The notes under the pieces: generated by a model | Told to the model about the DNA's origin: nothing | Database searches by the model: none | The model's input: only the letters and a program-made list of their open reading frames with translations | Translations under genes and position numbers: made by a program | NCBI RefSeq assembly: GCF_026914185.1 | Contig: NC_070561.1 | Span: 7,626,001-7,690,000, forward strand | Reading direction: 5' to 3' | Length of the DNA: 64,000 nt | DNA from: Puccinia triticina | Lineage: Eukaryota > Basidiomycota > Pucciniomycetes > Pucciniales > Pucciniaceae | Shown: in pieces, positions 10,501 to 61,590 of the stretch | Position numbering within the stretch: the first letter of the stretch is position 1 | Layout: each line of letters starts with the position of its first letter

Positions 10501-13146
10501 TCTGCTTTTGGGGCTAGCAGGATAAGGAGGTCTTCTGAGGAGAGGAGGATAGGGTCTCTCAGTTGTCAACTTGATATGAACTTCATGACCCTTAATGGCA
10601 CCAAGGGGCTGGTTGGTGTTGGAGAAGGCTAGGTTGTTATTGTAGAGGACTTCAAACAGCTTCTCCTTTTGCTCAATGGTCAGCTTATTACTGAACTTGG
10701 CTTCACAGAGTTCTTCTGTAATAAATTTCTGCAGTTGAGGATGGGACTTCTTTACAGCAGAAATTTCATTGGAAGGGCTCATTTTCTCCAGATGATGAGA
10801 CTTAAAGCTGAATTTCTTCCTCTTGTTCTCATTTCCAATGGTAAAGAATCTCTCTTTGCTGTTTGTGATGTCAAAGCCATAAAGAGACATGTAATCATTC
10901 CCAAGGATAAGATAGTTAATTCTTGCATTTTTCATGACTACAAATTCTGCTAGAATTCTAATGGAACCTTTAGTGTGAGGAAAAATCAAAGCCATTTCTA
11001 TTATGCCCATTGGCTGTAATTGGTCACTACAGCTGTGAAATTTAGCATGGTTGATTGGCATGAGCTTGTTTTCCCATTCTGGTAATATAGAATCTAGCAG
11101 TTTGTTGCTGATGATTGAGCAAGAAGCTCCACTATCAAGAAGGCATGAGTGTTCTCTGGATTCAATTAGGACAGTAGTAAGGTTTGCTTTTCCAGTAAGA
11201 TGAGCTTTTCCTCTATCAGGTTTACATTTCATCAGTCTAGCATCCTCTATGTGGGAAGACTGGCAGGATTTGTCCCAGGTCTGAGGTTGATGAGTTTCAG
11301 CTTGAATTTCAGCAATGGAGAAGTCTTGGTTTATCTCACATTCTACAGCATGTGTTCCAAAATCAAAATCAACTAAGGGATCATAATTGGCACCATTCCC
11401 ATTGTCCATGGCAAGAATCATGTGGTTGGTTCTATGATTCTCTTCCTCTTCATCCAGTTCTGATTCAGACTTATGTGGTTCACCTTGATCATCTTCATTG
11501 TCACTCTTGGGATCATCATCATCCTCCATTCCTACATTATTAATTCTTTTCTTCTTCTTGGGGCATTCCCTGGAGAAGTGGCCAGTTTGTTTGCAGAAAT
11601 GACACATAAGTTTTTCTTTCTCAGGGGCAGAGACATAATTCTTTTTGGCAGAGGAGTCGGATGGCTTATCAGCTTTCTCAGGGGCAGAATTGTTTCTCCA
11701 TTGGGATCTGTTAGGAGGGTTATAATTGTTTGTCACAGGCTTGTTCCTTTTCATGACTCTGTCTATGACTTCTTCAGCAATTATGACCATATCCTCAAAA
11801 CTCATTTCAGTAGCATCTCTTTTGTATCTGCTTTTAATAGCATGTTCAAGGTTTGGAGGGCATTGCTTCAAGATTTTCTCACAAATAAGATACTCACTGA
11901 GTTCAGGTTGATAAGCCTTCAGTCTTTCTCTCTGATTACCAAACCATTTGTGGATTTTCCTTCCATCATAGGCAAAGTGATCATTCTCAAATTCTTGTTG
12001 CATTTTCCATTTCCAGTTCTCAGTGCCAAACTTGTTTCTAATGGCATTCTTCCACCAAGCCCAAGATTTGTTTCCATACTGGTCTCTGATGCCTAGGTAC
12101 CAATTCCTGGCAGTGTCAGTCAACAAGATTGTTAATCTACTGATTATCATATTATCCAGCATCAAGTAGTCTCTGACCAGGATATCAGTGTTTTTAATCC
12201 AAAGTTCATGATTGTAAGGCAATTCTCCAGAGAATTTCTCCCAGTCTCCATTCTTGGGGATACCTTTCCACAATTCTTTCCTCATTTCAAAGTCTATTGC
12301 TCCATGATCAATATAGGGGAATTCTTCTTGTGCATTTGCATCAGTAGCATTGCTAGTAGGTCTAGAGAAGTTATCCCTGGATGGTCTTTGAGGTTCAGGA
12401 GTAGGAATAGGTGGAGGGGCTCTGTGTTCTTGCTGTTGTTCATGATGAACATTCTGAAAAGGGTTATTGTACAAGAGATGTGGGGGCTGTTCTCTATCCT
12501 TTTGGGTCATTAATGAATCTAATCTGGAACTCACAGAATTTATCCCAGAAGATATATCACTGAATCTTCTCTTGGATTGTTCAAACCTGTTGTGTTCATT
12601 GACATGAAGATCATTAATCTGATTTCCAATGGATGAAAGGTTGTGATCCAGTTTCTCTTCAAGCCCTTTCAAATTCTGGCCAATGTTGTCCATGTTGGAA
12701 TGGCATTGTGATTCATTCACCAGAATCAAATCTTGGATAGTCTCGAATTTCTCATCCATGTGTTTTTTCATTTGTTCTAACATATTGTTGCTCACATTGG
12801 ATTTCTCTCTGGCACTTTCTCCTGTATTATTCAGGATTTGGTCTAGTAAGAATGGGATGAATTCACTTTTAAAGAGATCAAGAATGGAATCATTTAATAC
12901 TTCTTTAAAGTTGCTAACACAAGATTCAAGAAGTGTACCAGGAATGGTTTCAACAGTGCCAGACAATTCAGATAGAAATTTAGAGAACAATACTTGTAGC
13001 TTTTCTTCTAGAAACAAGGGGCCATTTCTTGACATTTCATTGTTAAGATTGTTGAGGAAAAATTCTCTATTGGAAGGGTCAGAGAGATTATCAATGTCTA
13101 AACTAAGACCTAAAGGAGAATCACTACTTAATGAACTTTTAGGCAA
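7600..13146 (-). CDS. Gag-pol polyprotein with chromodomain (Ty3/gypsy chromovirus)
   Basis: One uninterrupted 1,848-codon frame. Residues 1-500 are gag, with a coiled-coil-like N-terminus. A CCHC zinc knuckle ([14 protein letters not shown]) lies near 513. The aspartic protease motif L-L-D-S-G-A-S is near 668. The RT catalytic Y-I-D-D is near 1,025, and the RNase H motif Y-V-D-S-S is near 1,168. The integrase has its HHCC finger near 1,405-1,447 and D/D/E residues (N-M-D-W, I-S-D-R-D, A-E-R-M) near 1,477, 1,538 and 1,574. The C-terminal ~50 residues (R-Y-K-G, D-E-W-L-L-E) form a chromodomain, which in this group targets integration to histone marks. All key residues are present. The frame has no ATG at its 5' end: it opens directly after the TAA at 13150-13152, and the first Met is codon 38 (13035). 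Readthrough, reinitiation or splicing must supply the start. Confidence 0.95.
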
Positions 13147-13154
13147 GGATTACA

Positions 13155-14728
13155 CTAATATGGGCCTCTCCCTCTGGCTCTCCCTCGACCGTAACCTCTC
13201 CTCACTCCTCGTGTGGCTCTCATGAGATATTCTCCTATCTGGAGAACCCGCTGGGTGTCGTCCCGTTGGTGTCTCCAGTTCCTCCCTGATCCTCTCCAAT
13301 TGCCTTGAGGATGGGGCTGGCTGTGGTCTGCGTACCCTTGCTGCGTGGGAGGATAGTGGTGTTGATTGTACTCGCCAGGATGCTGGTGCGTGTTGGGGCG
13401 GAATAACTGAACCACCTCTCGCGGTATAGAAGCTGGCGGAGGTCTCACTTGGAGCTGCTGTTGCGGTAGAGGGGGTGGCGGTGGCGGTGGCAATTGATGG
13501 CTGCGGTAAACTGGAGCCTCTGGGCGCAGTGGTTGTTGTGGCGGCGGCGGCGGCGGCGCTTGAGTTCCTGGATTGGATTGAGGGGTAGGACCCTGGTACC
13601 CAGCCTCTCGAGTCCTGTGCTGGAAGTTCGTGGGCTCTGGAGTTGGTGTAGCTATCATGGGCTGGTGGTTGGAGTGCGGAATCAAAGCTAGGGACGGATT
13701 GTTCTACGGATGGGGGGCGGCCGTAATCTGAGGCTGATTGTTGTTGCCTTGATTGTAAATGAGGCGCTCTACGTTGTTCAATTCCATCCGGGGAATCCAT
13801 TCTTGGCAGAGACGGATAGTTTCCTCTCTCCCAACTATGTCTTCTATCATATCCTGGCTCGTGGCCGCCTGGGATAGGATCATTTTCATAGTCCTCAGGT
13901 TCTGCGCCTCCCGCGCTCGGACGAAAAGGTCGAATTGGTCGTTGAAAAGATTCACTAGTCCTGAGATCTCTGGATCTTCCGGTATGAGCTCCATCGGGCC
14001 TGAAGAATCTGTTGGATGGGGGTTCTGAATGGGCGGAAGCAGGGCTAGATTCGGTGGCGCCTCCGGTCGTAAACCCTCTGGGTTGGTAGGCAGGGAGTTC
14101 ATCTGAGTGCCTGCTGATATCATCGGTTCTCTCTCTACTGGGCGCGGCACTGGTGTCGACCTGTTGGATGCGAGGGCCAGGGACGTCTCTCTTGGGTTGT
14201 ACAATGCCGGCGGTATTCCGGTATCCGGAGGCAGCGGCTCCTCTTGAGGGAAATTGAGGAAATCCTCTCCCAGCGGTGGTAGCGCCGATTCTAGCTCTTC
14301 GAAGCCGCTCTTCTGCGGCGGGGCTGAGTTGGTAGCGGAGCTGTTGTTCTGCGGAGAGGTTTCGGCCATTCCTAAGATGAGGAGGCATAATGTATTAGAT
14401 TTTGTTGAAGAAAATGGGAAGGAGGCAGGGTTTGAGTACCTGTAGTTTGGGATTTAGCGGAAATCCTTTTACTTTTACGTGTGGTAGAAGAGGATTTCTT
14501 CTTGGAATCCTTTGCGCAAGTTTTCGCAGGTGGTTCAGAGGTCCAGTCAGATATCTTGACGGGAGCTATGGTTTTTCTACGGCGAGTTTTCGGAGCTTTA
14601 GCTGTAGCTATAGGAGTCCACAAGGTACTACTGATAAGGTTGCCGTTACGCGGATTTGCTACTATCCTGTCGTCGTAGTTTTCTTCTTCTGTGCTAGTCT
14701 GCGCTGTCACGAATTTTTTTACGGTCAA
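13155..14728 (-). CDS. ORF1 of the gypsy element, spliced, with one in-frame TAG
   Basis: A 68-nt intron (14439-14372; GTACTC donor, CTAAT branch, TTAG acceptor) joins a basic exon (14728-14440) in frame to a long exon (14371-13155). The long exon has a helical block around L-V-N-L-F-N-D-Q-F-D-L-F, a proline-rich stretch, and an Arg/Gly tail (R-G-Y-G-R-G-R-A-R-G-R-G). That suggests a nucleic-acid-binding gag accessory. A TAG at 13704-13706 splits the long exon into 221- and 176-codon halves, so it is either a nonsense mutation or a readthrough codon. The true 5' end is unresolved: the first exon has no ATG, and a further exon at 14744-14938 could join through a weak intron. The overlapping frame 14388-13150 is also fully open. 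Confidence 0.6.
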
Positions 14729-18090: not shown

Positions 18091-21000
18091 TTATTCAGGG
18101 TCTGGCTTGGGTTTAGGCTCTGGAGAGGGCTTGGGGTCTGGAGATGGTTTAGGCCCTGGAGAGGGCTTGGGGTCGGGTTTGCGGTCTGGAGATGGTTTAG
18201 GCCCTGGAGAGGGCTTGGGGTTGGGTTTGGGGTCTGGAGATGGTTTAGGCCCTGGAGAGGGCTTGGGGTCGGGTTTGGGGTCTGGAGATGGTTTAGGCCC
18301 TGGAGAGGGCTTGGGGTCGGGTTTGCGGTCTGGAGATGGTTTAGGCCCTGGAGAGGGCTTGGGGTCGGGTTTGGGGTCTGGAGATGGTTTAGGCCCTGGA
18401 GAGGGCTTGGGGTCGGGTTTGGGGTCTGGAGATGGCTTAGGCCCTGGAGAGGGCTTGGGGTTGGGTTTGGGGTCTGGAGATGGTTTAGGGTCTGGCTTGG
18501 GCTCACCTGCCGGTAGTGGCTTTTCAGGAGTTGGTTTGGGTTTGATGTCTTGAACAGGTGTCTTTGGGATTTCTTGCAGTTTAAGTGAGCTTGTCAGATC
18601 ATTTGGATTGGGAAGGGGCTTAACTGGGAGCTTGATTGATTTTTGCACATCAGTTGGGGGTGTTTTTGGCAGGGGTAACTCTTGAAGTGTCACTGGCAGC
18701 GTTTTGGGTGGTGTTTTAGGTGGTGTTTTTGGAATTGGTACCCCTTGAAGCTTGACTGTTTTGGGCAGTGTTTTAGGTAATTCTTGCAGTGTCACTGGTG
18801 GGGTTTTAGGGGGGGTTTTAGGTGGTGTTTTAGGTATTGGGAACTCTAGCAGTGTCACTGCTGTTGTCTTAGGTGGTGTTTTAGGAAGTGGTAAATCTTG
18901 AAGCTTGACTGTTTTGGGTGGTGTTTTAGGCAGCTCTTGCAGTTTCACTGGTGGTGTTTGTGGAAGGTTTGCTGGGGGCTTCAAGTCAGCTGGCTTTATG
19001 GGTTGGGTGGGAGCTCCCACAGGCGGAAATCGTGAGGAAAGCAAGATCCCACTGGAAAAAGCCTCAATTGGTCTTCCATTAGGAGTGACTGTTACTGTTG
19101 GCATACGTTTGAAGGCCCCGCTGGTTATTCGGTCAGTAACTTGGAATGTTGCTTGATTCTGAGCCAATCTCATTGTAATTGTTTCAGAAAATCCAAATCT
19201 CATCCCATTATCTACATTGACAAAAGACCTCACAGGGACTATTGGGGTTGGATTTGGGACGGGGATCTGAAGGTGAAATTGGAAATCAGTGGGAAAATAT
19301 TGGAAGAATGCAATCAAAATGAACATACACCCATCCTCTTTGCTGCAATCCATAAGCTTTGTGTTTGTCGCATTGAGAACATGTCAGTATTAACAGGAGG
19401 GATTCCAATGAGACGGTTTGATAGCCCAGGGATGTTGTTTAAAAGTGTTCTTCCTGATCCTCTTTCAGAGAATTCAAATGTATTTCCTCCAAACTGAATT
19501 TTCTCTGATATGCGAGTTGGGTTCCCATTTCTATCAAATCGCTCAGTGATTTTTGCACTGAAGTCTCCTATCTGGAGTCTCTCAGTGAAGCTCCCCAATC
19601 TTCCATTTGAGCGAATTCTTTCTGTGATGGTATCACTAAATGTTGTTCCCCCCATCTGGCCAGTGATAGACTGTTGAAATCTGTTTGGTCGTCCATTCTG
19701 ATCAAATTTGCCACCTATTTGAATTCTGTTACCAGCCGCGTCTTTACCTATAACCATAACCGTTTCGGTTTGGATGAAACTCTGGGGAATCTGGAAGGGA
19801 AAATTGACTCAGAATTGTATTGAAAAAATTTAAAATTTAAATACACATACCCCACTCTGTTTGGCTACAGCAATTAACTGCATGCATCCTGTTGCAAAAG
19901 GGTTGACTATTGACATTCTGATTGTTGTTGTTGTTTTACGTCTCCTTCTTCCAGGCGCAGGTAAGTCAGACAGTATGGGCTGAAGAATCATGGCATTAGA
20001 TCGCAAGGTGAATTGGAGCTTGAAATTTATTTTCACTTACAAAATTCTGATATTTGTTTTGAAACAAAACATTTGAAAAAAATATGGTCAAATAAGGTAA
20101 AGAACAAGTAAAGCTGGAAGAACTGTTCTTACCGCCTGGTTCTAATTTGTTCAAACAAAGACAAACCAAAAGTTAGTACAAAAAGATAAAACTCAGGAGC
20201 TTTGTATCAAACAAAGCAGTTGATCGGAACAAGTTTTAATAATCTTACTTTCACCAAAAGAAAAAAACTTACGTTTACCTTGAAAGTCCAAGGGGGAAAT
20301 AACATTCAAAGTTAGTTTTTAACTCAAAGTGCTTTCTTTGTGTATACTGCAAAAATCCTCACATTTTATTCCAGAATAAATTATGAGTTGGAGAGAGACA
20401 ATTCAGAAATATGTTGGATGAAACATGATGAGAACAAATCTTACAAGGAATGGATTCTAAAGATGCAGAAATGATCAGTACTGTCAAGATAAATAGAGGA
20501 ACTTGAAAAATACTCACAGTGTTGTTTGGCTAAGTGATGATTTGTTAAAATCAAATCAGCCACGCATACTGAAAGCAATCTTCCTACTGAGAAATAACTT
20601 ACACCTGGCTGTATCATATAAATTCATGGTTAATCAGTACTTCTCTATCTATTCATTTTATTTAAAATTCTTGACTTACATTAGGGGGGGGCTATGGGTG
20701 TGTGGCATGGTAATTTAGCTGTCAGCAAAAATTTGATAGCTCAAATCATATGACGGGTATCTTACAAGATTCTAAAGCCCCAATTTTATTTCCATTGAGT
20801 GGAATGTCAGAATTTTCTCTTGTTTCATTCAGATATAGAGTATATGAAGACCTACCCCAGTTGTATCCTGTTTTAGAGGAGAGCTCATTTCAGTAAAAGC
20901 TTATCATGGACGTTTGGTAGAAATTCTCACAATTGGATTGGGAGTTGGGTTTCCCCCTGTTGGATTTGGAACTCCACCTCCTGGTGTGGGGGTAGCGCTT

Positions 21001-22061
21001 CCCAAATTATCAGCTGCACCCAGCGAGGCTGCAGTGGGATTTGGTTTGGTACTCCCAGGGTCAGTAAGAGGATTCAAGGTAGTGTTTCCAGTAGGATTTG
21101 TCCCCAAAGCATCAGTTGAAGCTGGGCCACCAGTAATTGGGATAGGGTTTGGAGTTGCCAGATCAGCGGTACCCAAAGCAGCAGCACCTGCTGCAGGATT
21201 TACGCCCACAGGTGAGGTGATACCACCCCCGGGGTTTGGAGCTCCCAAGTTATCAGTTGAACCCAAAGCTGTTCCTGCTGGATTAGTTCCTCCAGGGGTC
21301 AGAGCATTGCTTCCCGGGGTTATCCCAGTGTTTGTAGCACCCCCAAGTGACACGGTTGAATCCAATGTTGCACCACCAGTACCAATACCCAATGATGTAT
21401 TCCCACCAATACTGGCCTTGAAACCATTTTGACCCATGGAAATTCAGAAATCAGCTGGGTCCATTTCATTTTTGAAGGTTATTTTTGAAAGAAAAAGCTT
21501 ACATCAAGCTGTGGGTCAAGGAAATGAACAAATCAATTTCAAGTCAATTCTTTCTTGATGATTTCAAGATAAAAAGACATGTGAACTTACAGTTGCCTGT
21601 ATCAATCAAGAAAAGATAAATTTGAACCAAAGACCTTCCTTTCATAAGCTTCAAGTTAAATTTTGTTTGATCTGAAATTACTCACAGCAGTTGGTGGCGG
21701 TTGTGTGGCTGGTTGTGGTGGTGGTAATGGTTGAGGCTGGGGTTCCACGGCTGGTTGTGGCTGCGGAACAGGCTGGGGGTCCACGGCTGGTTGTGGTTGT
21801 GGTAATGTTTGTGGCTGCGGAGGTTGCAGGGCAGCCTGGGGTTGCGGGGCCATCTGGGGTTGTGGGGCAGGAAGGGGCTGAGAAAGAAGGCTTGGATCAC
21901 CTCCTCCTACAGGATTTATAGTCTGGGTTGAGGAATTAACATCAATTTTTGTTGTACGTGTAAGGTCAGCACCAGTTTGAGTAGTCTGAGATGGAAGAAT
22001 AAGATCAGCTGGTTGTGATCACACTTGCAGGACACAATTTGAGAATGAGTCATACCGCTTT

Positions 22062-22093
<32 letters not shown>

Positions 22094-23823
22094 GCTGCTG
22101 ATGTTTTTTTTGTGCAGGAGATTCAATATACCAGTTATAAATTACAGAGGAATCAGATCTCAAGCTATTTTGGATGTGAGTTTTGAGAGAAAACGGCCTT
22201 ACATTCCCTCTGTCCTCTCTGAGGGTGACAATAGTGGTGGTATCCTTACCAACAGCTGTTCTGCCTAAATTCTGGAGACACAGAGAAACAAGACTGGAGA
22301 TGAGAAACTGAAAGATATCTTTTGAGTTGATTGCTTACCACTGGTGTAGGGTTTATCTTTTATATTTGGAGGAAAAACGCAGTAAGTCTCTGTTGCAGAG
22401 TGATGACAAAATAGTTCTGGACCAACCTTTGGTTGAGGCTAAAATTTGCAGCAAGTCATTGATCAGCTTTCCAAAGAATATAAAGCAATTTATATCACAG
22501 GCTTACAGTTTTCTGGGATTCAATCAGTTTGATGAAAGATGAGGGAATTGTCAGGATCAAAAAACTCCAAGATACAATGTTTGCAACCACAATATAGACT
22601 CACATTGCCCTGTGTACATGCATTCGCAGAGGAAAAAGGTTAGTGTTTCTTCTTTGTGATATTTTGAAAGGAAGATGTTAAGAATCATACCACAATTGTT
22701 GTCTTGAAGTGATTTTTGCCGTGGGGAGATCAGCTTCAATGTTCTTTGACTTGTATGATGTGAGGCATGAACTTACAGTATTAGTGATCTGTGGCGGAAA
22801 AAAAAAATCATTATCAAGTAGTCGGACTGAAGGAATAACCTCAATATGAGCACGTACATTCAGCTAACAGCACATCAGACCAGTTTTAAAAGAAATTCAG
22901 AAATTGTTATAGGTCATTTCCGGTGGGAGACTGATGAACTTACTGTCACAATCTTGAAAAAAAGTAACAGGTTGGTCAGCCTTAAGTTCACATAGTGCAA
23001 GTTTAACAGATTACTCACAAGCTCCTCCTCCTCCTCTTGCAACTGGGTTACTATAATGTCGGAGAGTTTTGCTGGACGTGGAGAAACTTTAGGAATTACG
23101 TTCCGATTTGCTGCAGCCCTCACAATCTCAAAAAAAAAGTACAAAAAGCAGAGCAACATATCAGGCTCTTGCTCACATAGGAGCTCAACAGACTACTCAC
23201 CTCGATTTCGAATTCCTCTTCCTCCTCCTCTGCGAATATAACATTGGGGACTTGCTTCAGAGCTAAAGGAGCTTTGGGAACTACGTTCCGAATGGGGGTG
23301 ATGGGTCCCTTTCCAACTATCGGAGTTAACTTTTGGCCTTTTGGGGGTTTTAGATCTGTGATTAATCTATTAGAATTTTACCATTGAGTTAGCACACCGG
23401 GAAGGACTAAAAAAAGCAGTGAACAACGTACCAAATTCAATCCGAACAAAGGAGGTCCAAGGCATCAAATTTTGAGGGGTAAAACAGTCAGAGCCATGTA
23501 CGCTTGTGGAAAACGGAGTCTGATCCGGCTCGCTCACCTGTACCACGTTGAGGCGACCGTTTGGAAAGCTTGAAAGCAGATGTGACCATGGCTGTCAAGT
23601 CGTTAGCAAAGTGTTCAGGAGCGCGGCTCTCGAAAATGCTGCCAGCCTTCATATGGTTAGAAACATGCGACCCGAGCGCATGGTGATAGTAATTGATAGA
23701 GCCAAACAGTAAGACCATCCAAGCACCGAAAACGAAGAACAGCCAAATCCATCGGCGATTATTCGCTTTCGGCTGGTTTTGTAAGCCTTGGATGCTTATA
23801 CGGAGCTGCGGTTTGGAACTCAT
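18091..23823 (-). CDS. Micro-exon gene: type II membrane/secreted low-complexity protein, ~29 exons
   Basis: Exons, 5' to 3': 23823-23538, 23355-23201, 23126-23019, 22952-22944, 22863-22858, 22788-22777, 22702-22691, 22609-22604, 22512-22507, 22438-22427, 22356-22339, 22271-22203, 22097-22056, 21985-21686, 21596-21591, 21508-21503, 21416-20931, 20867-20856, 20771-20766, 20691-20680, 20608-20603, 20529-20518, 20456-20445, 20278-20273, 20141-20133, 20046-20041, 19979-19851, 19790-19329, 19266-18091. The frame stays open throughout: 3,387 nt, 1,128 residues. Nineteen exons are 6-18 nt, each a multiple of 3 in phase 0. Most introns carry CTGAC/CTGAT/CTAAC branch sites. The N-terminus is short and basic, then one hydrophobic segment (about residues 25-44): a signal anchor. 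Next come Glu-run exons, a poly-Gln exon, a Pro/Gln exon, a Gly/Asn/Pro/Thr exon with L-G-x-x-D-x-L-G repeats, ~23-residue I-T-E-R-x-x-x-N-G repeats, P-K-T-P-P-K-T repeats and a 16-residue Pro/Lys/Asp repeat tail. I recognise no family. The 20278-20273, 22356-22339 and first-intron calls are the weakest. Confidence 0.75.
18128..18500 (-). repeat. 48-bp coding minisatellite (16-residue Pro-rich repeats)
   Basis: About 7.5 copies of a 48-bp unit (GGTCTGGAGATGG, then TTTAGGCCCTGGAGAGG, then GCTTGGGG on the plus strand) encode P-S-P-D-P-K-P-(D/N)-P-K-P-S-P-G-P-K at the C-terminus. Units differ by single bases, so copy number probably varies between strains. Confidence 0.9.
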
Positions 23824-44164: not shown

Positions 44165-44363
44165 CCGGCGCATCGGGCTTGGGTAGACCTTGTCCAACAT
44201 CCGAGCCCGGCAAATCCGGAGATGATGATGCTTGTCATGCATACTTTTCTTTTTCTGTGCTGGAGATGGCTGATTAAGTAAGCAGTCCAGCCCACTTGTT
44301 TGGCCAGTGGACAGCAGTCGATGGTCAACAAGCACCCAGCACGAACCATCTCGGATTGAAGCC

Positions 44364-46765
44364 ATGAACGAACCAGCCGAACAACAGCAACTTCACGCAT
44401 TCTGTCTGCCAGAACAAACCATCAACTCACTCCAGTACACCAACAACAACAACTACACCGACCAACCAGAAACAACAGAACCAGAAACAGAAAGAAAAGA
44501 AACAGCCAACGAGAACCTGTCAAGCTTCAGCTGCACGGTCTGTAACACCAGCTTCGACTCAAACGACCTACAGCGAGAACATTTCAGATCAGACTGGCAC
44601 AGATTCAACCTCAAGCTGACCACAGCAGCCAGCCACAAGAAGCCGATCGACCATGCCCGATTCACCAGCATGCTCGAAGACTACCAAGACTCACTCAGCG
44701 GCTCAGACTCATCATCCTCTGACTCAGACTCAGCAGACTCGTCAGACTCAGAACACCAGCGACTAGGCTTCAAGTCATCGAAGAACTTCAAGCAGTCTGC
44801 ATCCACTAGTCTCGAAGATCGCTTCCAAGAGATGCTCTCATCATCAACACAGCCAGACTCATCAGAACCGATCAGACTGCTCTCACCAGCAGCAAGCCCC
44901 CTGCTCTGGTTTACGCTATCAGCCGGCCAAGAGCCTTCTGCTGCCACAGTATCAGAAGAGGAACAGATCGTCCAGCTGGGGTTCTACCGCGCCATCTTCC
45001 CCAACAGCTTCCCACGAGACCGTTCCCTGGCCCCAAACCAGGACGAACTAGGTACCACATACCGAACCGAACTCGCCGCCCTCCAACGCCCATTCCTGCC
45101 CCCCAACTTTTCACCTGATATCACCTCGGAACCCTCGCTGCCGCCAACGTGGACGATCATCATGATCGGGGGCGGACACTTCGCCGCTATGGTCGTCTCT
45201 ACCATCCCCAAACTGAGACATGTAAGCAAAAATAAAGCCCCAGAAATCGAGCCCGTAATCTTGCATCATAAAACATTCCATCGCTATACCAGTTGAGTCT
45301 CTGTTCCAGATCTTCCCCCTTTCTCTCTTTCTTATTAACTGACACCCATACACAAACACACCAAAAAGCCAGAAGAAAGCAAGGCGGGGGGCAAGCAAGT
45401 CACGATGCGGGCGGAAAAGGCGCGGCCAAATCAGCAGGAGCAAGTCTAAGAAGATACAACGAACAAGCACTCTCCCAAGTGAATACCCCTCATCCTCTAC
45501 CATTCCCCTCACAATCGGTGCTGACGATTTTGATGGGCACATAGGATATCCAAGATCTTCTGAAGGCCTGGGACGAGCCCATCAGCCACTCCGATCTCGT
45601 CTTCATTCGCTCTAGCAAATCGAACCTGAAGACGCTCTTCAAGAGTAAAGACGAGACGGGTGGATGTAAACTTACGCGCGGGGATCCGCGGGTCAGGAGC
45701 CTGCCGTTTGTAACAAAGCGTCCTGTCAGCATCTTTCTTTCTTTCCCCTCTTTTTGTGGGATCATAGAAGAGATAATTAATGATGAGGATGTTTGATGAT
45801 AGACATTTAATGAGTTGAAGCGATGTTTCAACGAGCTCACACGTGTCAAGATCTTCAAGACGACGCGCGGCGAGATGAAGATGAAGGAGCAGACGATGCG
45901 GGAGATATATGAGCGAGAGAAAGCGCGACGGGAGCAGCAAGCGGCCAAGAAAGCGGAGCAAGAGGCTCGACAACGCGCTGAGGAGGAGCGGAAGCGGGCG
46001 GAGAGGATGGAGCAGAAGCGGGAGAAGACGGATGCAGAGAAGGCGCAAGAGCTGGAAGATTCGCGCTGGGAGCGGGTGATCGAGATGGTGAAAAAGGGGA
46101 AGCTGGAAGCGCTGCAGGAGTTTGTAGGCAAGCATAGCGAGACGGACTGGTTTGGGCAGCTTCCGGCGCGGGTGACGGGGCGGGCGGAAGTGAGCGGCGG
46201 GGTGGTGAGTCTTTTGCAGCTGGCGTCGATGTCCGACCATCCGGGCCTAGTGGAATGGTTGCTCTCGACCACGACGAGCGACCCGACGATGGTCGCTCCC
46301 GAACGGACGGGCACGTCGAAGGCCCATCTCACGCCCTACGAACTCGCGGCCTCCCGGCTGGTCCGTAACGTCTTCCGGCGCGCTATGGCCACTAACCCCA
46401 CCCAATACGACTGGCTCGCGAAAGCTAAGGTGCCTTCCCCGCTCACCGAGGAGCTCGAGGCGACCCAGAACAGTAAGAATAAGGAGTGGAATAGGAAGCT
46501 TAAGGAAAAGCTTAAGGAACGCGACCGGGTGCGCGCCGAGAACGAGAAGCTTCTGCAGGCCCAGGCCGCCGCCGCTAAACAAGAGGAGACGAAAGCAAGA
46601 GCCCCGAAAGTTTCGTCTGCGACTGCTAATCGCTTGGACGGCGGCTCGGTCGCTCGCAAGTCTAATGTCGTGTCGGCTAATGCGGTGGCGGGGTTGTCGG
46701 AGGAGCAACGGGCCCGTTTGGAACGCGAGCGGAGAGCGCGAGCCGCCGAAGCGCGACTTAGATGA
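44364..46765 (+). CDS. VMS1: Vms1/ANKZF1 peptidyl-tRNA-cleaving ribosome quality control factor
   Basis: Exons 44364-45291, 45369-45478, 45545-45724 and 45803-46765 give 726 residues. A C2H2 finger near 55 (F-S-C-T-V-C-N, H-F-R-S-D-W-H) and an acidic Ser/Asp linker come first. The VLRF1 domain has G-G-G-H-F-A near 268, H-K-T-F-H-R-Y-T near 305 and R-R-K-Q-G-G-G-Q; the last Gln corresponds to the catalytic Gln of yeast Vms1. K-S-A-G-x-x-L-R-R-Y-N-E and S-D-L-V-F-I-R-S follow. Then come a Glu/Arg-rich coiled coil, ankyrin-like sequence (L-L-Q-L-A-S, L-V-E-W-L-L) and, at the extreme C-terminus, R-E-R-R-A-R-A-A-E-A-R, which fits the Cdc48/p97 VIM consensus RX5AAX2R. Vms1 releases nascent chains from stalled 60S subunits by cutting the tRNA. 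The start at 44364 is the first ATG in frame. Confidence 0.95.
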
Positions 46766-47454: not shown

Positions 47455-48438
47455 TCATGATTGACGTTTCCAGTTGGAAGAGGAAGAAGCTTTGCTTGCC
47501 GAGGAGCTGTCTGCATGACCATTCCCTTGGGTGTTTGCCTTGTCGCGGGCAGATGCGGCTGAATTTGCGGCTGAATCGCCGGCGCTGGATCCAGAGCCCC
47601 CGGCAGCGGCATTAGCTGAACCTTGAGCGCCCACCGAACCTGCTGGACGTCGACCGTTTGCCTGGGCGCGGGCAGCAGCGTCTGCATTTGCGGCCGAATG
47701 GCCTGTGCCGGGTTGAGTGTTTGCCTTGGCATGAGCAGCGGCGGCTGCGCTTGCGGCCGACTTGCCGTCCCCGCGTCCGGAGCCTCTGGCAGCGGACTTA
47801 GCTGGGCCGTTTGCGCTGGCTGGGCCTGATTCACGTGAACTGTTTGTCCCGGCGCCAACAGCCGCGTCTGCGTTTGGGCCAGAGTTGCGAGGGCCGGGAT
47901 CGGAGCCTTCTTCGGTGAAATCATCTGAGCCGTTGGAGTCGGCCGGAGCTGTTGGACGTGGAGCACTGGCCTTGGCGTGAGCAGCGGCCTCTGCACTTGC
48001 TGCCGAGTTACCAGTGGTGGGACCGGGCTGGCCTTGGCCTCTAGCGGCGGCGGCGGCGGCAGCGTCAGCATGAGCGTTGGCCGCGCTCCCGGCTACTCCT
48101 CCTTCAGCACTGCCGCCAATCATCGGACCCGGAGGGCCACCGGGAACCATGACTGCGCCCATCGGAGGCGGGGGGGCGACGTCAAAAGCACCAACCGGTC
48201 CGGGACCGGGTCCTCCAAGAGCACTCCCAACGAGATCAGTCGCCGCATTGAAACCTGCGCCAGGCCCGGGAACCATGCGTCTGACCATCCGATTCGCACC
48301 CGCTTGTCGGCCGTTCCTGGGGGTGTAAGGGGTGCTTGTCGTCGGTTGAGTATCCTGGCTTAGTGGGGAAGCGGAAACCTCGACGGTCATAACTGAAAGA
48401 CTGATGATCATCATCAAGCTGACGTTCATCTTCAACAT
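47455..48438 (-). CDS. Secreted Ala/Gly/Ser-rich protein, copy 1
   Basis: 327 residues in one exon, starting M-L-K-M-N-V. The first ~24 residues are a signal peptide (M-M-I-I-S-L-S-V-M-T-V, cleavage near A-S-P). The rest is Ala, Gly, Ser and Pro-rich, with repeated A-A-A-H-A-K-A, G-N-S-A-A-S-A and G-G-P-G-P-G-P-V-G blocks. The end is poly-Ser (S-S-S-A-S-K-A-S-S-S-S-N-W). No enzyme motif is visible; a structural, wall or surface role is the likeliest guess. The paralogue at 55398-56060 is ~107 residues shorter through loss of internal repeats. Other frames here are open because of the GC-rich repeats, but only this one has a signal peptide and is conserved in the duplicate. Confidence 0.8.
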   Translation of the reverse strand: MLKMNVSLMMIISLSVMTVEVSASPLSQDTQPTTSTPYTPRNGRQAGANRMVRRMVPGPGAGFNAATDLVGSALGGPGPGPVGAFDVAPPPPMGAVMVPGGPPGPMIGGSAEGGVAGSAANAHADAAAAAAARGQGQPGPTTGNSAASAEAAAHAKASAPRPTAPADSNGSDDFTEEGSDPGPRNSGPNADAAVGAGTNSSRESGPASANGPAKSAARGSGRGDGKSAASAAAAAHAKANTQPGTGHSAANADAAARAQANGRRPAGSVGAQGSANAAAGGSGSSAGDSAANSAASARDKANTQGNGHADSSSASKASSSSNWKRQS

Positions 48439-48654
48439 CTTGGGCTAAAATTTCTGAAGTCGCAGTAGATACTAGTTAGCATGAAGTCAAAAAATGAAAC
48501 GAGAAGTGGATGCAAAAGAAAATGACTAACAAAAGCTGGTTCGAAGAGCGCGGATCTTGTTGCGACTGGTTGGGTGGTATGATAAGATTCACGGAGAATG
48601 ACTGTCAAAGTCAGTGGCCCGCTGGATGTTACAAGCTTGTTTCAAACAAACGGT

Positions 48655-55397: not shown

Positions 55398-56060
55398 TCA
55401 TGATCGTTGCTCCCAGTTGGAAGAAGAGGAAGATTTGCTGGCCGAGGAGCTGTTTGCATCGACAGCGCCTTGGGTATTTGCCTTGGCGCGGGCATCCGCA
55501 GCTGAACTTGCGGCTGAATCGCCGGCGCTGGGTCCAGAGCTTCCGGCGGCGCCATCAGCTGAACCTTGAGCGTCCACCGAGCCTGTTGGACGTGGGCCGT
55601 TTGCCTGAGCGCGAGCAGCAGCGCCTGCAGTTGCGGCCGAGTTGCCTGTGCTTGGGCCGGGCTGGCCGGGGCCTCGAGCGGCGGTAGCAGCATCAGCGTC
55701 AGCATTGGCATCCGCTCCTCCTCCGATACTGCCAGCGACCATCGGACCCGGAGGGCCACCCGGAACCACGACTGCACCAACCGGAGGCGGGCCAACGAGC
55801 GGGCCAGAAGGACCGATACCGACGGGACCGGGACCGGGTCCACCCAGAGCGGCTCCAACGAGACCTGCAGCCACATTGAGACCTGCGCCGACGCCTGCAC
55901 CAGGCCCGGGGACCATCCGTCTGTCCACTCGATTGCCGCTCGTTCGACGGCCTATGGAAGTAGTGCTGCGTGTATCCTCGTTGAGTGGTGAGGCGAGAAC
56001 TCCAAAGGCCATGATTGCAAAGCCGATTATCACCATCGAGCTAACGTTCATCTTCAACAT
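55398..56060 (-). CDS. Secreted Ala/Gly/Ser-rich protein, copy 2
   Basis: 220 residues from M-L-K-M-N-V at 56060, the start conserved with copy 1; an upstream in-frame ATG at 56093 would add 11 residues but would spoil the signal peptide. Signal peptide core M-V-I-I-G-F-A-I-M-A-F. The mature protein shares R-R-M-V-P-G-P-G-A-G, G-G-P-G-P-G-P-V-G, V-P-G-G-P-P-G-P-M and the poly-Ser/N-W end with copy 1. It lacks about 107 residues of central Ala-rich repeats. No catalytic motif. Confidence 0.8.
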   Translation of the reverse strand: MLKMNVSSMVIIGFAIMAFGVLASPLNEDTRSTTSIGRRTSGNRVDRRMVPGPGAGVGAGLNVAAGLVGAALGGPGPGPVGIGPSGPLVGPPPVGAVVVPGGPPGPMVAGSIGGGADANADADAATAARGPGQPGPSTGNSAATAGAAARAQANGPRPTGSVDAQGSADGAAGSSGPSAGDSAASSAADARAKANTQGAVDANSSSASKSSSSSNWEQRS

Positions 56061-56449
56061 CGTGCTGGAAATATCTGAAATCGTAGCGGACATTGGTTAG
56101 CGAAAAGTCACGAAATGAAACGGGATACGGGTGAACAGCAAAACAAAAGGACTAACAAGAGAATTGTCCACGTAATCTCAGTCTTGTTGCGGCTGCGTGC
56201 GGAATGTACAAATATTTTTGAACAATGACTGTCGAAGTCAGTGTGGTTGAAAAGTTCCGCTGGATACAAGCTTGTTTCTAACAAGCAGGTTAACTTTCAA
56301 AGTTTCAGACGGTGATATACGAGATGGATAAGAGCAGACCGCTAGCGGAGGAACCAGAAGATGGACGAAGGAGGAATGAGGAAGTTGAATGTGTACAGGA
56401 AGCAAGCTTTGGATAGGGGATGAGGGCCTTCAAAGGAAAAAGGAAGCGG

Positions 56450-57199: not shown

Positions 57200-60100
57200 A
57201 CAACGTATCCAATTTAATTGTGAACGGGCAGCTGCCGACTAATCCTCTCTTCCAGCTTCTCCTTAAAACAGCATGGAGGTGGACGATGAAGATGTTGAAG
57301 GCTGAGCTTACGGCCGGTGGACGAACCGGGGAGCCCTGGCCGTTCACGGGGCCGAGAGGGGTGCTCAGGGGTCTCATGCCAGGCAGGTTGGCTGCCTGCG
57401 ACAAAAGTGACGTCACCCGGCGCAGTGTTTGCTGACCATCCTCAAAGTTTACCCAGGGATCAGGATATCAACTTCGACAGCCCGTTCTGCGGCTGTATCT
57501 TCCCACTGGTTCAACTGCTGGCAGCCTGCAAGCTCCAGGAAAATCATACAGGGCCATCTTCAAGAGCGGTTCCGGCCGAAAGGCACTCCCTGGCTCTTCT
57601 GCAGGCGTCCTCGAACTTGCCTCCTTTTGATCAAGAGGCCTTCTTAGCTGATATTCCTGAAACTGAATGGACGGAAGCACTTGAATTCTACCATGTGACA
57701 GCAAACCGCTGCTGGAACTGTGGTGACAGTTCTCACTACTTGAGAGACTGTCCGACCAGAGCAAGGTTGACACTGGTCTTTTGACGTCAAAGAGGACCCG
57801 GTGCTTTGTCCTATTGCCCTGCGGTTGCGCCTTGGCAACAATTCCAACAGGCACCGTTTTTGCCAATGATCAGCGTGGTGTACCCACCACTGGGGGTTCC
57901 CTTTGGCCAGCAATCATTTCCCGTGGCTCCTCAGCAATTCCAATCTCGTCCTTTCTTCAAACCGCATCAGTACTTTCAGCAAGGACACCAATCCTACCCC
58001 TCCGTTCCCCCGCAGTACCAGCCGCTGGCTCAACGACAGAACTATTGACTGGCCAACAGTTATTGACCCTGATCACAGCAAGCTACCCGCCAATCTCAGT
58101 TTGAACCAAGATCAAGGTCAGACCAACAACGGGGGGGTGGGGCTTCGGCGAAGGAAGCGGAAGTGGCAGGTTTCCCTGATGGCCTCGCTGAGGGAGATTT
58201 TGCGGCATTGACCATGGAGATTGATGTAAGTACTCCCGCCATTCTTGACTCTGGGGCAACCCAAAATCTCACAGGAGATTTAAGACTCCTGCATAACTTT
58301 TGCAAACTCAAAGTTCCAATTGCACTGAATGTAGCAACTGCAGGAGCTGGAGCCACTATATCAGGCGCAGGAGACCTCCTTTTCAGAGGACACGGTGGCG
58401 AGTGAATAGCCGTAAAAACGGTGTTGTACTGTGAGCGAGCGTCGTCTACTCTCATCTCACTAGCCGGGCTCAGAAAGGCTGACTGGTCTTTCGCATATGA
58501 CCAGACAACGGACTGTTTCAATATTTTTGATGTTACAGCTCAACACGTCTTCTGCTGCATGTTTGATTGTGAACAAAACCGGTGGTGTATCCCGTTTCCC
58601 ATGGTTTGGTCGAGTCCCCCAAGCAAATCAAAATCCATTGCTTTGAAGGCTGTTTCAATTGCACCATCTTCAGTCCACATGGTTTCCTCTTCTCCTATGA
58701 ATCATGTTCCCAATTCTTTTTCTCGCACACTGTCATCAGTTTCTCATCTTCCTGATACAAATGTCAATGAATCTCACTTATCCTTGGACGTACCTGCTGA
58801 GATCACTTCCCTAGTGACTGCCCCAATGATCCGTTCATCACACCTTTTGAGAGGATCTATCCCTCTTTGTGGAGGCCGGAATCTCTTACGGAGTCTGAGA
58901 AAGTGTTATTATTCTGGCACCGCATATTTGGGCATGTGAGCCTCAGGAAAATACAGTCTCTGATAAAACAACGTTTGGGTTTTGGACTTCCTTCCGATCT
59001 GCCACCTGGAAAAATTCACTGTCCTATCTGCGCAATCACAAAGAGCACTAGCCTGAATCCTCTAACAAGCACAATGCGCAGTCCTGCTCAACTAGAGATA
59101 CTCTGCACTGATCTAATGGGGCCATTTCCCAAGGAAGCTATTGATGGATCCAAATATCTGCTCACTTTGAGGGATGTTGCATCAGGCTACTCATATGTCA
59201 AAGGTCTAAAGGTTGAATCAGATGCCAATGTGATCCTTATGGAGATTATCCGGAAGCTCGAGAAGCAGACGGGTGATTTTGTTAAGATACTTTGTAGTGA
59301 CAATGGTGGGGAATTTGCAAAAAAGGCTTTCAACACTTTCTTGAAAGAAAAAGGCATTATTGCTGAGCGTTCTCTACCCTATCACCACTATCAGAACAGG
59401 GTGGTGGAGAGATTTAACCGGACTGTTGCAGATATGGGGCGCACTGTCCTTAGTGATAGCCAATTACCGCGCAATTTCTGGGTGTACGCCTTCTTGTGGG
59501 CAAACCATGTATTAAACCGCGTTCCAAACAAGTCTAGCAAAGGGAAGACGCCGTACAAGGCGCTGTTTAATCGGCCACCAAATTTTGACACCTTCAGGAT
59601 TTTTGGTTCAAAAGCATTTATCCATATACCTGTTGAGAAGCGCAATAAGCTTGATGATAGGGCGGCGGAGGCCTACATTGTTGCGCATTTGGAAGCCAGT
59701 AAAGGATGGCTGTTCTATCTACCATTGACAAACACTTTTTTCTCTTCGGCAATGGTGCGGTTTGTAGACAGCATCCCATGCGTCACAATACAGAAGAAGG
59801 CAATTCTAGCTCCGACTAATTCGGACACTTTGGCTAGCTCAATAGCTACAGAGTTTATTGCGCGTCAAATAAGCCTTGGGAACTTTGTCAATGAGATTGA
59901 GTTTGACAACCAGGAGTTTTTGGTTGACGCTATCCTTCAGACGTGCTCCTCTTATGGTGTAGATATTCCAAAGACTTACAAGCAGGCAATGAAGTCGTCA
60001 GAAAAGGCCTATTGGACTAATGCCATCTTGGAGGAGCTATCCAAACTGTTGCAGATGGATGTCTGGGTGTCACAACTCATGCCAGAAGGGAAGATGGGTA

Positions 60101-61590
60101 TTCGCAAAAAAGTCCAGGGCAGATGGGGGTACACCGCGATATAAAGCACGATATGTTGCAAAAGGTTTCCGCCAGGTTGCTGGGCATGACTTCAATGAAA
60201 ATTTTGCTCCAACAGCGACTTTTGTGGCTCTACGGTTGCTCCTGACTATTGTGGCGTGTTTCAATTGGCATGTTCACAGTTTTGATTTTGCTGCACCTTA
60301 TTTAAACTCCCCCATAGACAAAGAAGTCTGGGTCAAGCCTCCAGAGGGAGTTGATCTGCCAGCGGGGCATGCTTTCAAGCTTAAAAAGGCATTGTATGGA
60401 ACACAACAGGCGGCTCGGTGCTGGTGGCTTCACTTACGGGGTATCCTAGACAAACTGGGGTACTCTCCGTCTCAGTATGATAACAGCCTATATATCTTGC
60501 GTCATGAAACTGAGACGGGAGTAATATGGGTCCATGTAGACAATGAGGTTATGACGGCATCCAACAAGAACCTCCTGCAAAAATTGGAGTTAGATCTTAA
60601 GGATGTCCTGAAGATTAAGTGGTCCAATCAATTGGACTCAATTGTTGGTGTAAGTATCCAGCGTGCGCCAGAAGGCTTTGTCCTCTCTCAGCCAAAGCTT
60701 ATCAACGCTTTGCTAGAGGAGGAATGGGATGGGGTTCAAACGGCAAAGACACCACTGCCTCTGAATTTCAACGCAGTCACAGAGGATGGTGATGCCTCTG
60801 GTTCATCAAAATACCTGCACATCCTTGGGATGATGAGCTACCTAGCTGTAGGTACTTGGCCGGACATTGCTTTTTCAGTCAATTACCTAGCGCGTTTTTT
60901 GGCTAAGCCAGGTGCTCAACACTGGAATGGTGTTCAACATCTGGTCAATTATATAGCGGGTAGTGCTGAACAATGTTTATGCCTCTTTCCAGACAGAGAT
61001 CCAAAGGCGCTGAAGACTTACTGCAACACGTCTTGGGGCGGAGAGTTCTCACGATCATCCTACAAGGTCTTGATTCTGTTTCTAGGTTGTCCGGTCTTAT
61101 GGGTAGCCCGCCAACAAACAACTGTTGCAGCTTCTACATGCCATGCAGAATACATGGCGCTTGGAGCTGCGACACAAAACACACTATGGATTTGACACCT
61201 GCTTCAAGATGTCCTGAAGGCTGATTTTGTAGGGAATCTTTACTGTGACAACCAGTTGGCTGTGAGGGTAGGTACAGATGATTCATCTAACAAAAGGACA
61301 CAACACATGGACAGGGATTTTTATATTACTAATGAGGCACTTTACAAGAAACTGACGACTTTGACTTGGGTTCCCACCACAGATCAGAAAGCGGATGTTT
61401 TCACTAAAAGCCTGCCGCCTGAATTGTTTAGGAAGATGAGGAGCCATCTTTTGCGGCCTGGTTGGATTTTTTTTCTTCTCTTTTTTTTATTTTTTTTATC
61501 TCATTGTCTCTTATTTTTTCCTGCTCTATCTTTCAGATGCGTAGACTAGTTTGTATGTAGGGTCTCAAGTCTGGGCGAGGGGGTGGCTGT
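57200..61590 (+). pseudogene. Degenerate Ty1/copia gag-pol
   Basis: Gag end with zinc knuckle C-W-N-C-G-D-S-S-H-Y-L-R-D-C (~57708-57752); protease I-L-D-S-G-A-T (~58240-58260); pre-integrase C-P-I-C; integrase with C-T-D-L-M-G, S-D-N-G-G-E-F and V-V-E-R-F-N-R (~59100-59420); RT (Y-K-A-R-Y-V-A-K-G to H-V-D-N-E, ~60147-60550); RNase H and the usual K-A-D-V-F-T-K-S end (~61390). Broken by frameshifts between gag and protease, near 58,860 and near 60,090, a TGA at ~58403 and a TGA after L-W-I at ~61193. The RT catalytic V-D-D is V-D-N, and RNase H has Y-C-N instead of Y-C-D. The 5' LTR is not seen. A purine-rich G-G-G-C-G-A-G-G-G-G-G-T-G-G then TGTTGTAACCTGACATG near 61588 may mark the 3' LTR. 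Confidence 0.9.

Follow-up and report, generated by a model that had tools for sequence, protein, structure and literature searches.

Locus and gene structure

The window analysed here is a stretch of 64,000 nucleotides from the genome of Puccinia triticina, the wheat leaf rust fungus (assembly GCF_026914185.1, contig NC_070561.1, positions 7,626,001 to 7,690,000); all coordinates below are counted from its first letter. On its minus strand, from 23823 to 18091, we identified a putative gene of 28 exons and 27 introns, 19 of whose exons are micro-exons of at most 18 nt. Splice-site threading and translation joined all exons into a single reading frame, so that the splicing and the exon boundaries of this model are deduced from genomic sequence. 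The coding sequence comprises 3,492 bases including the stop codon and encodes 1,163 residues. Stops in the gene frame lie upstream of the ATG. The exons are as follows.

23538..23823, minus strand: exon 1, with the start codon and a signal-anchor-like helix at residues 25-43 (hydropathy peak 2.07)
23201..23355, minus strand: exon 2, 155 nt, the sole internal exon not divisible by three
23019..23126, minus strand: exon 3, with an acidic run at its end
22339..22952, minus strand: micro-exon block 1, exons 4-11 (9, 6, 12, 12, 6, 6, 12 and 18 nt; residues 184-210)
22056..22271, minus strand: exon 12 (216 nt), which contains a Gln tract and, at 22249 and 22202, alternative donors of the form GTAAGG
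21686..21985, minus strand: exon 13, 300 nt, Pro/Gln-rich
21503..21596, minus strand: micro-exons 14 and 15, 6 nt each, with the intron between them
20931..21416, minus strand: exon 16, 486 nt, Gly/Thr/Pro-rich
20041..20867, minus strand: micro-exon block 2, exons 17-25 (12, 6, 12, 6, 12, 12, 6, 9 and 6 nt; residues 549-575)
19851..19979, minus strand: exon 26, 129 nt, with the basic run RRRRK (residues 586-590)
19329..19790, minus strand: exon 27, 462 nt, the conserved part
18091..19266, minus strand: exon 28, 1,176 nt with the stop codon, more ordinary in its first part and followed by a Pro/Lys-rich tail

The micro-exons thus lie in blocks of eight, two and nine. Nine of them are 6 nt long, two are 9 nt, seven are 12 nt and one is 18 nt; together they contribute 174 nt, or 58 residues, which is 5% of the coding sequence. 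The nine remaining exons range from 108 to 1,176 nt. All but one of the 26 internal exons are divisible by three, the exception being exon 2, which follows an exon 1 of 286 nt, and exons 3 to 28 start in phase 0 throughout. The introns are 60-182 nt long with a median of 74 nt, and 24 of the 27 fall between 60 and 91 nt, the outliers measuring 131, 166 and 182 nt. Donors of the form GTRAG were found in 20 introns, and the acceptors are CAG (14), TAG (7), AAG (5) and GAG (1). Retention in frame would introduce at least one stop in 19 of the 27 introns; introns 3 and 5 are stop-free and have lengths divisible by three. When exons 3 to 27 were skipped singly in silico, the frame was kept without a new stop in 25 of 25 cases. 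The predicted gene shows the architecture by which micro-exon genes are recognised, namely many consecutive in-frame exons shorter than about 30 nt between canonical introns.

An earlier sequence-only reading of this locus had described 19 tiny exons of 6, 9, 12 and 18 nt, all multiples of three and in phase 0, separated by introns of mostly 60-90 nt. We located all of them, and 19 of 19 have the length and phase described. Its claims of a signal-anchor-like N terminus and of micro-exons that can be skipped without shifting the frame agree with our analysis as well. Its open frame of 1,128 codons was too short, since our recount gave 1,163 codons and a stop.

Phase signal of the micro-exons

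We counted pairs on the minus strand between 23018 and 20021 in which HAG is followed 3-18 nt downstream by GTAAG or GTGAG. By length modulo three (0, 1, 2), this strict pattern gave 18, 2 and 1 pairs in the gene region. The means of 300 dinucleotide shuffles of the same region were 0.80, 0.65 and 0.67, with an in-phase maximum of 5, and the opposite strand gave 1, 0 and 2. Fifteen of the 21 pairs correspond to micro-exons of the model, all 15 in phase, and three of the other six are in phase. Five of these six end at donors within exon 12 and one uses the donor of exon 24. The remaining four micro-exons have donors outside the GTAAG/GTGAG pattern.

When the donor pattern was widened and lengths from 3 to 20 nt were allowed, a background of 264 kb (both strands, gene excluded) contained 521, 478 and 515 pairs, and hence no strong general phase bias.

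Coding composition and branch points

The 58 micro-exon residues resemble the rest of the protein in composition. Asn, Thr or Pro account for 33 of them, compared with 13% in length-matched AG..GT pseudo-exons of the background. Scored against the composition of exons 12, 13, 16 and 26, they reached a log-odds of +34.9 bits, while stop-free background draws averaged −21.1 bits (standard deviation 8.7, maximum 10.9) and none of 20,000 attained the micro-exon score. The same kind of test against the gene's own introns gave +36.9 versus −44.9 (standard deviation 11.9), and 0 of 5,000 draws reached the observed value.

Branch-point-like motifs were enriched upstream of the acceptors. Of the 27 introns, 19 carry CTRAY at a distance of 10-45 nt from the acceptor, compared with a mean of 4.7 and at most 12 in 2,000 rounds of shuffling; YTRAY occurs in the same range in 22 (shuffled mean 11.6, maximum 21). 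The sequence-only reading had placed such a motif in nearly all introns; the enrichment holds, and "nearly all" was too strong.

Several observations weigh against the micro-exons, or against the model in its present form. In the tested range, CTRAY is missing from 8 introns and YTRAY from 5, and seven donors are not GTRAG. None of the 19 micro-exons contains a stop, which is weak on its own, as 1,525 of 20,000 background draws were likewise stop-free. Over the whole window, both strands and the gene included, the strict pattern gave 86, 42 and 61 pairs. The wider pattern gave at best 19, 4 and 3 pairs for the gene, and single 3-kb background stretches came close, with 17, 8 and 7 (L007, minus strand, the background maximum of 17 in phase) and 11, 3 and 3 (L006, plus strand). 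Finally, the three long introns at 20279-20444 (166 nt), 20142-20272 (131 nt) and 23356-23537 (182 nt), all on the minus strand, may hold extra micro-exons with non-standard sites, although none was found in them by eye.

Because of the phase excess in single background stretches, chains were counted as well. The chain unit was a micro-exon-like segment with a branch-point-like motif, units being linked by introns of 50-180 nt, and 96 partly overlapping chunks were scanned. The two chunks that overlap the gene contained in-frame chains of 8 and 6, and the 94 others chains of 0-2; out-of-frame chains reached 2 and 3. The scan did not admit donors like GTAGGT and GTTGGT, and the detected chains are for this reason shorter than the nine and eight micro-exons of the model. 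No in-frame chain longer than 2 was found in four further 10-kb stretches on both strands (8 strands). The scan covered 304 kb of the 122.8 Mb genome, and similar genes could exist elsewhere in it. In L007, at about 1500-6500 on the minus strand, the in-phase AG..GT excess surrounds a tandem repeat at 3646-4101, and the in-frame chain there does not exceed 2.

Taken together, these tests indicate that the micro-exons are very probably real coding exons.

Encoded protein

The hydrophobic helix at residues 25-43 is preceded by a basic N terminus and could be either an anchor or a signal peptide. Downstream of it, the Asn/Thr/Pro-rich residues of the micro-exons lie within low-complexity linkers. 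Block 1 contains three N-glycosylation sequons (NIT, NTT and NKT), every one of which is created across a micro-exon junction. The RRRRK run of exon 26 is a possible candidate for a Kex2-type site. The product of exon 27 is predicted to form an antiparallel beta-meander of eight strands, and the tail of exon 28 contains a 48-nt tandem repeat in 7.6 copies (18127-18489).

Relatives and origin

No second copy was found in the P. triticina genome for the four stretches searched, which were exons 1-3, parts of exons 12-13, exon 27 and the start of exon 28. For exon 27, a search of 5.8 billion predicted proteins yielded six candidates. One of these, P0001 (150 aa), is encoded on a 2,796-base contig of a JGI metagenome and is 76% identical over 93% of the query. 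The similarity stops at the final residue before the donor of intron 27, and beyond this point both frames read VCS, as expected of a GTATGT-type donor. This indicates that the exon 27 region and its splice donor are probably conserved.

Among 276 intron pairs, introns 2 and 3 resemble each other most closely (z 4.7), followed by introns 12 and 21 (z 4.3), and exons 2 and 3 have in common a 25-nt stretch that is 84% identical. This suggests the duplication of one unit. Adjacent introns are generally not more alike than distant ones, and duplication within the array, if any, would therefore be old or erased.

Neighbouring features of the window

Outside the gene, we noted the following open reading frames (ORFs).

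7600-13149, minus strand: long open frame in which domains of a reverse transcriptase, an RNase H and an integrase were recognised, Ty3/Gypsy-like by eye; further ORFs precede it (13150-14453, minus strand)
44361-45293, plus strand: ORF matching the VLRF1 release factor (E 1.1e-8) and, with a score under the cut-off, a zinc finger
45803-46765, plus strand: ORF without a Pfam match
47455-48444 and 55398-56096, both minus strand: two ORFs rich in Ala, Gly and Pro that are related to each other (74% over 85 aa) and, judged by eye, begin like a signal peptide
58801-61195, plus strand: ORFs resembling Ty1/Copia integrase and reverse transcriptase, by eye

The ORFs at 44361-45293 and 45803-46765 may be two exons of a Vms1/ANKZF1-type gene. 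Those at 47455-48444 and 55398-56096 probably encode a pair of secreted proteins.

Interpretation

The explanation we favour, and hold to be reasonably likely, is that this is an intact 28-exon gene whose 19 micro-exons encode pieces of a disordered, probably extracellular linker and, being all symmetric, would do little harm when skipped. The product would be a surface protein, either secreted or anchored in type II orientation, and would comprise an extended region rich in Thr, Asn, Pro, Gln and Gly, a compact beta-rich conserved part and a Pro/Lys repeat tail.

Fungal introns as short as these are normally recognised across the intron, that is, by intron definition. If the transcripts follow the predicted chain, these introns would be recognised in the same way, and exon size, even 6 nt, would then not be limiting. 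With only 6-18 nt between an acceptor and the next donor, the two sites could scarcely be bound at the same time, and adjacent introns would have to be spliced out in succession. Skipping of tiny exons should be frequent in such splicing, and would cost little when all of them are symmetric; in a disordered linker, the gain or loss of 2-6 residues would be tolerated. Selection would have retained only symmetric, stop-free micro-exons, and their phase, their position in low-complexity linkers and their composition would follow from the survival of such exons in an indifferent region. This scenario of tolerance as the cause of the array needs no diversity programme.

An unlikely alternative, in line with the large protein diversity at the cell surface that the sequence-only reading had proposed, is that the micro-exons are alternatively included in many combinations. 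A surface protein facing the plant would in this way vary in length, sequence and glycosylation. The symmetry of 19 of 19 micro-exons in phase 0 and the neutrality of all 25 single skips would suit such programmed diversity, as would the spliced isoforms of schistosome micro-exon genes (PMC10526429). The clearest hint comes from the sequons, each of which needs both neighbouring exons to be included, so that skipping a partner would remove or alter it. However, the micro-exons supply only 58 of the 1,163 residues, their symmetry is equally expected from filtering by tolerance of mis-splicing, and no paralogue was found for the four stretches searched. A more specific form, which we regard as rather improbable, is an independently evolved combinatorial gene in which differential inclusion of the blocks of eight, two and nine would adjust the length and N-glycosylation of a surface protein, as a convergent counterpart of the schistosome genes outside animals.

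The gene could also be real and its array partly mis-threaded. Some tiny exons would then represent alternative sites or decoys, which are skipped in the main mRNA or joined there at other boundaries. Pointing this way are the non-GTRAG donors after exons 5, 7, 10, 12 and 17 (GTACGT, GTATGA, GTTGGT, GTATGA and GTAGGT), the alternative GTAAGG donors inside exon 12, and introns 3 and 5, which could be retained in frame. We give this a low probability, as the composition of the 58 residues is far closer to the large exons of the gene than to background and no micro-exon contains a stop.

That the locus is a decaying gene or pseudogene with shrunken exons, in which splicing of the array no longer matters, would fit its repeat-rich sequence and the lack of a second copy in our searches, but appears very improbable given a frame open for 1,163 codons across 28 exons, 25 of 26 internal exons symmetric and a relative with 76% identity to the product of exon 27. 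Chance AG..GT pairs in ordinary coding or low-complexity DNA, or a codon-phase artefact, can produce an excess modulo three elsewhere (L007 minus, L006 plus), but this explanation is rejected at the sequence level by 18 of 21 pairs in phase against an expectation of 0.8, by running-frame stops in 19 of 27 introns and by the enriched branch-point motifs.

If transcripts bear out the predicted array, a fungal spliceosome would handle eight or nine exons of 6-18 nt in a row, and the gene would offer a strong natural test of splicing by intron definition. The origin of such arrays would then not be confined to animals, and comparable genes of rust fungi may have been missed in automated annotation.

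Comparison with known micro-exon systems

The sequence-only reading had likened this gene to the micro-exon genes (MEGs) of Schistosoma and the bicycle genes of aphids. The likeness holds for the architecture but not for the micro-exon share of the coding sequence, intron length, phase or cysteines.

Paired CYC motifs are a mark of the aphid bicycle proteins, whereas the protein predicted here has a single cysteine in 1,163 residues. Bicycle genes form a family with about 17 exons per gene on average and have many small internal exons, almost all in phase 2 (PMC9168663). Numerous small internal exons that nearly all share a phase are also a feature of the P. triticina gene, but exons 3 to 28 are in phase 0, and one gene of 28 exons was found.

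The MEGs of Schistosoma, a set of 35 genes, are built of short exons whose lengths (6-81 bp) are for the most part divisible by three. Their introns range from 100 to almost 5,000 bp, and they have an N-terminal membrane-targeting segment and spliced isoforms (PMC10526429). In common with them, the gene described here has many tiny exons divisible by three (19 of 19). MEG products are secreted by means of an N-terminal signal peptide, and the helix at residues 25-43 here may be such a signal or an anchor. In contrast, a MEG coding sequence is composed of short exons (3-81 bp), whereas exons of at most 18 nt provide 174 of 3,492 bases here; the introns are 60-182 nt (median 74), and no second copy was found. 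The comparison with MEGs is by architecture alone.

In fungi, exons as small as 6 bp with frequent introns of 45-55 bp have been described in P450 genes of Phanerochaete chrysosporium (PMC1184071), a 20-nt switch exon in Xlr2 of Trichoderma virens (PMC11121469), whose abstract calls functional micro-exons previously undescribed in filamentous fungi, and a 1-nt exon in CYP621A of Fusarium (PMC12940212), where very small exons are named as a recognised difficulty for annotation pipelines. Micro-exons have also been treated in plants (PMC8831610). The fungal examples concern enzyme genes or a DNA-binding domain, and long consecutive runs are unmentioned in the consulted parts of these papers, whereas 19 micro-exons occur here in blocks of eight, two and nine within a low-complexity linker. 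No micro-exon array of a rust fungus came up in searches of the open-licence full text of PMC, where subscription journals are mostly missing and broad result lists were viewed in part. Micro-exon genes as such are already known; what this gene would add is the placing of micro-exon arrays in the linker of a fungal protein. On the features compared, it looks like a convergent variant of the micro-exon architecture that lies outside both the schistosome MEG and the bicycle families.

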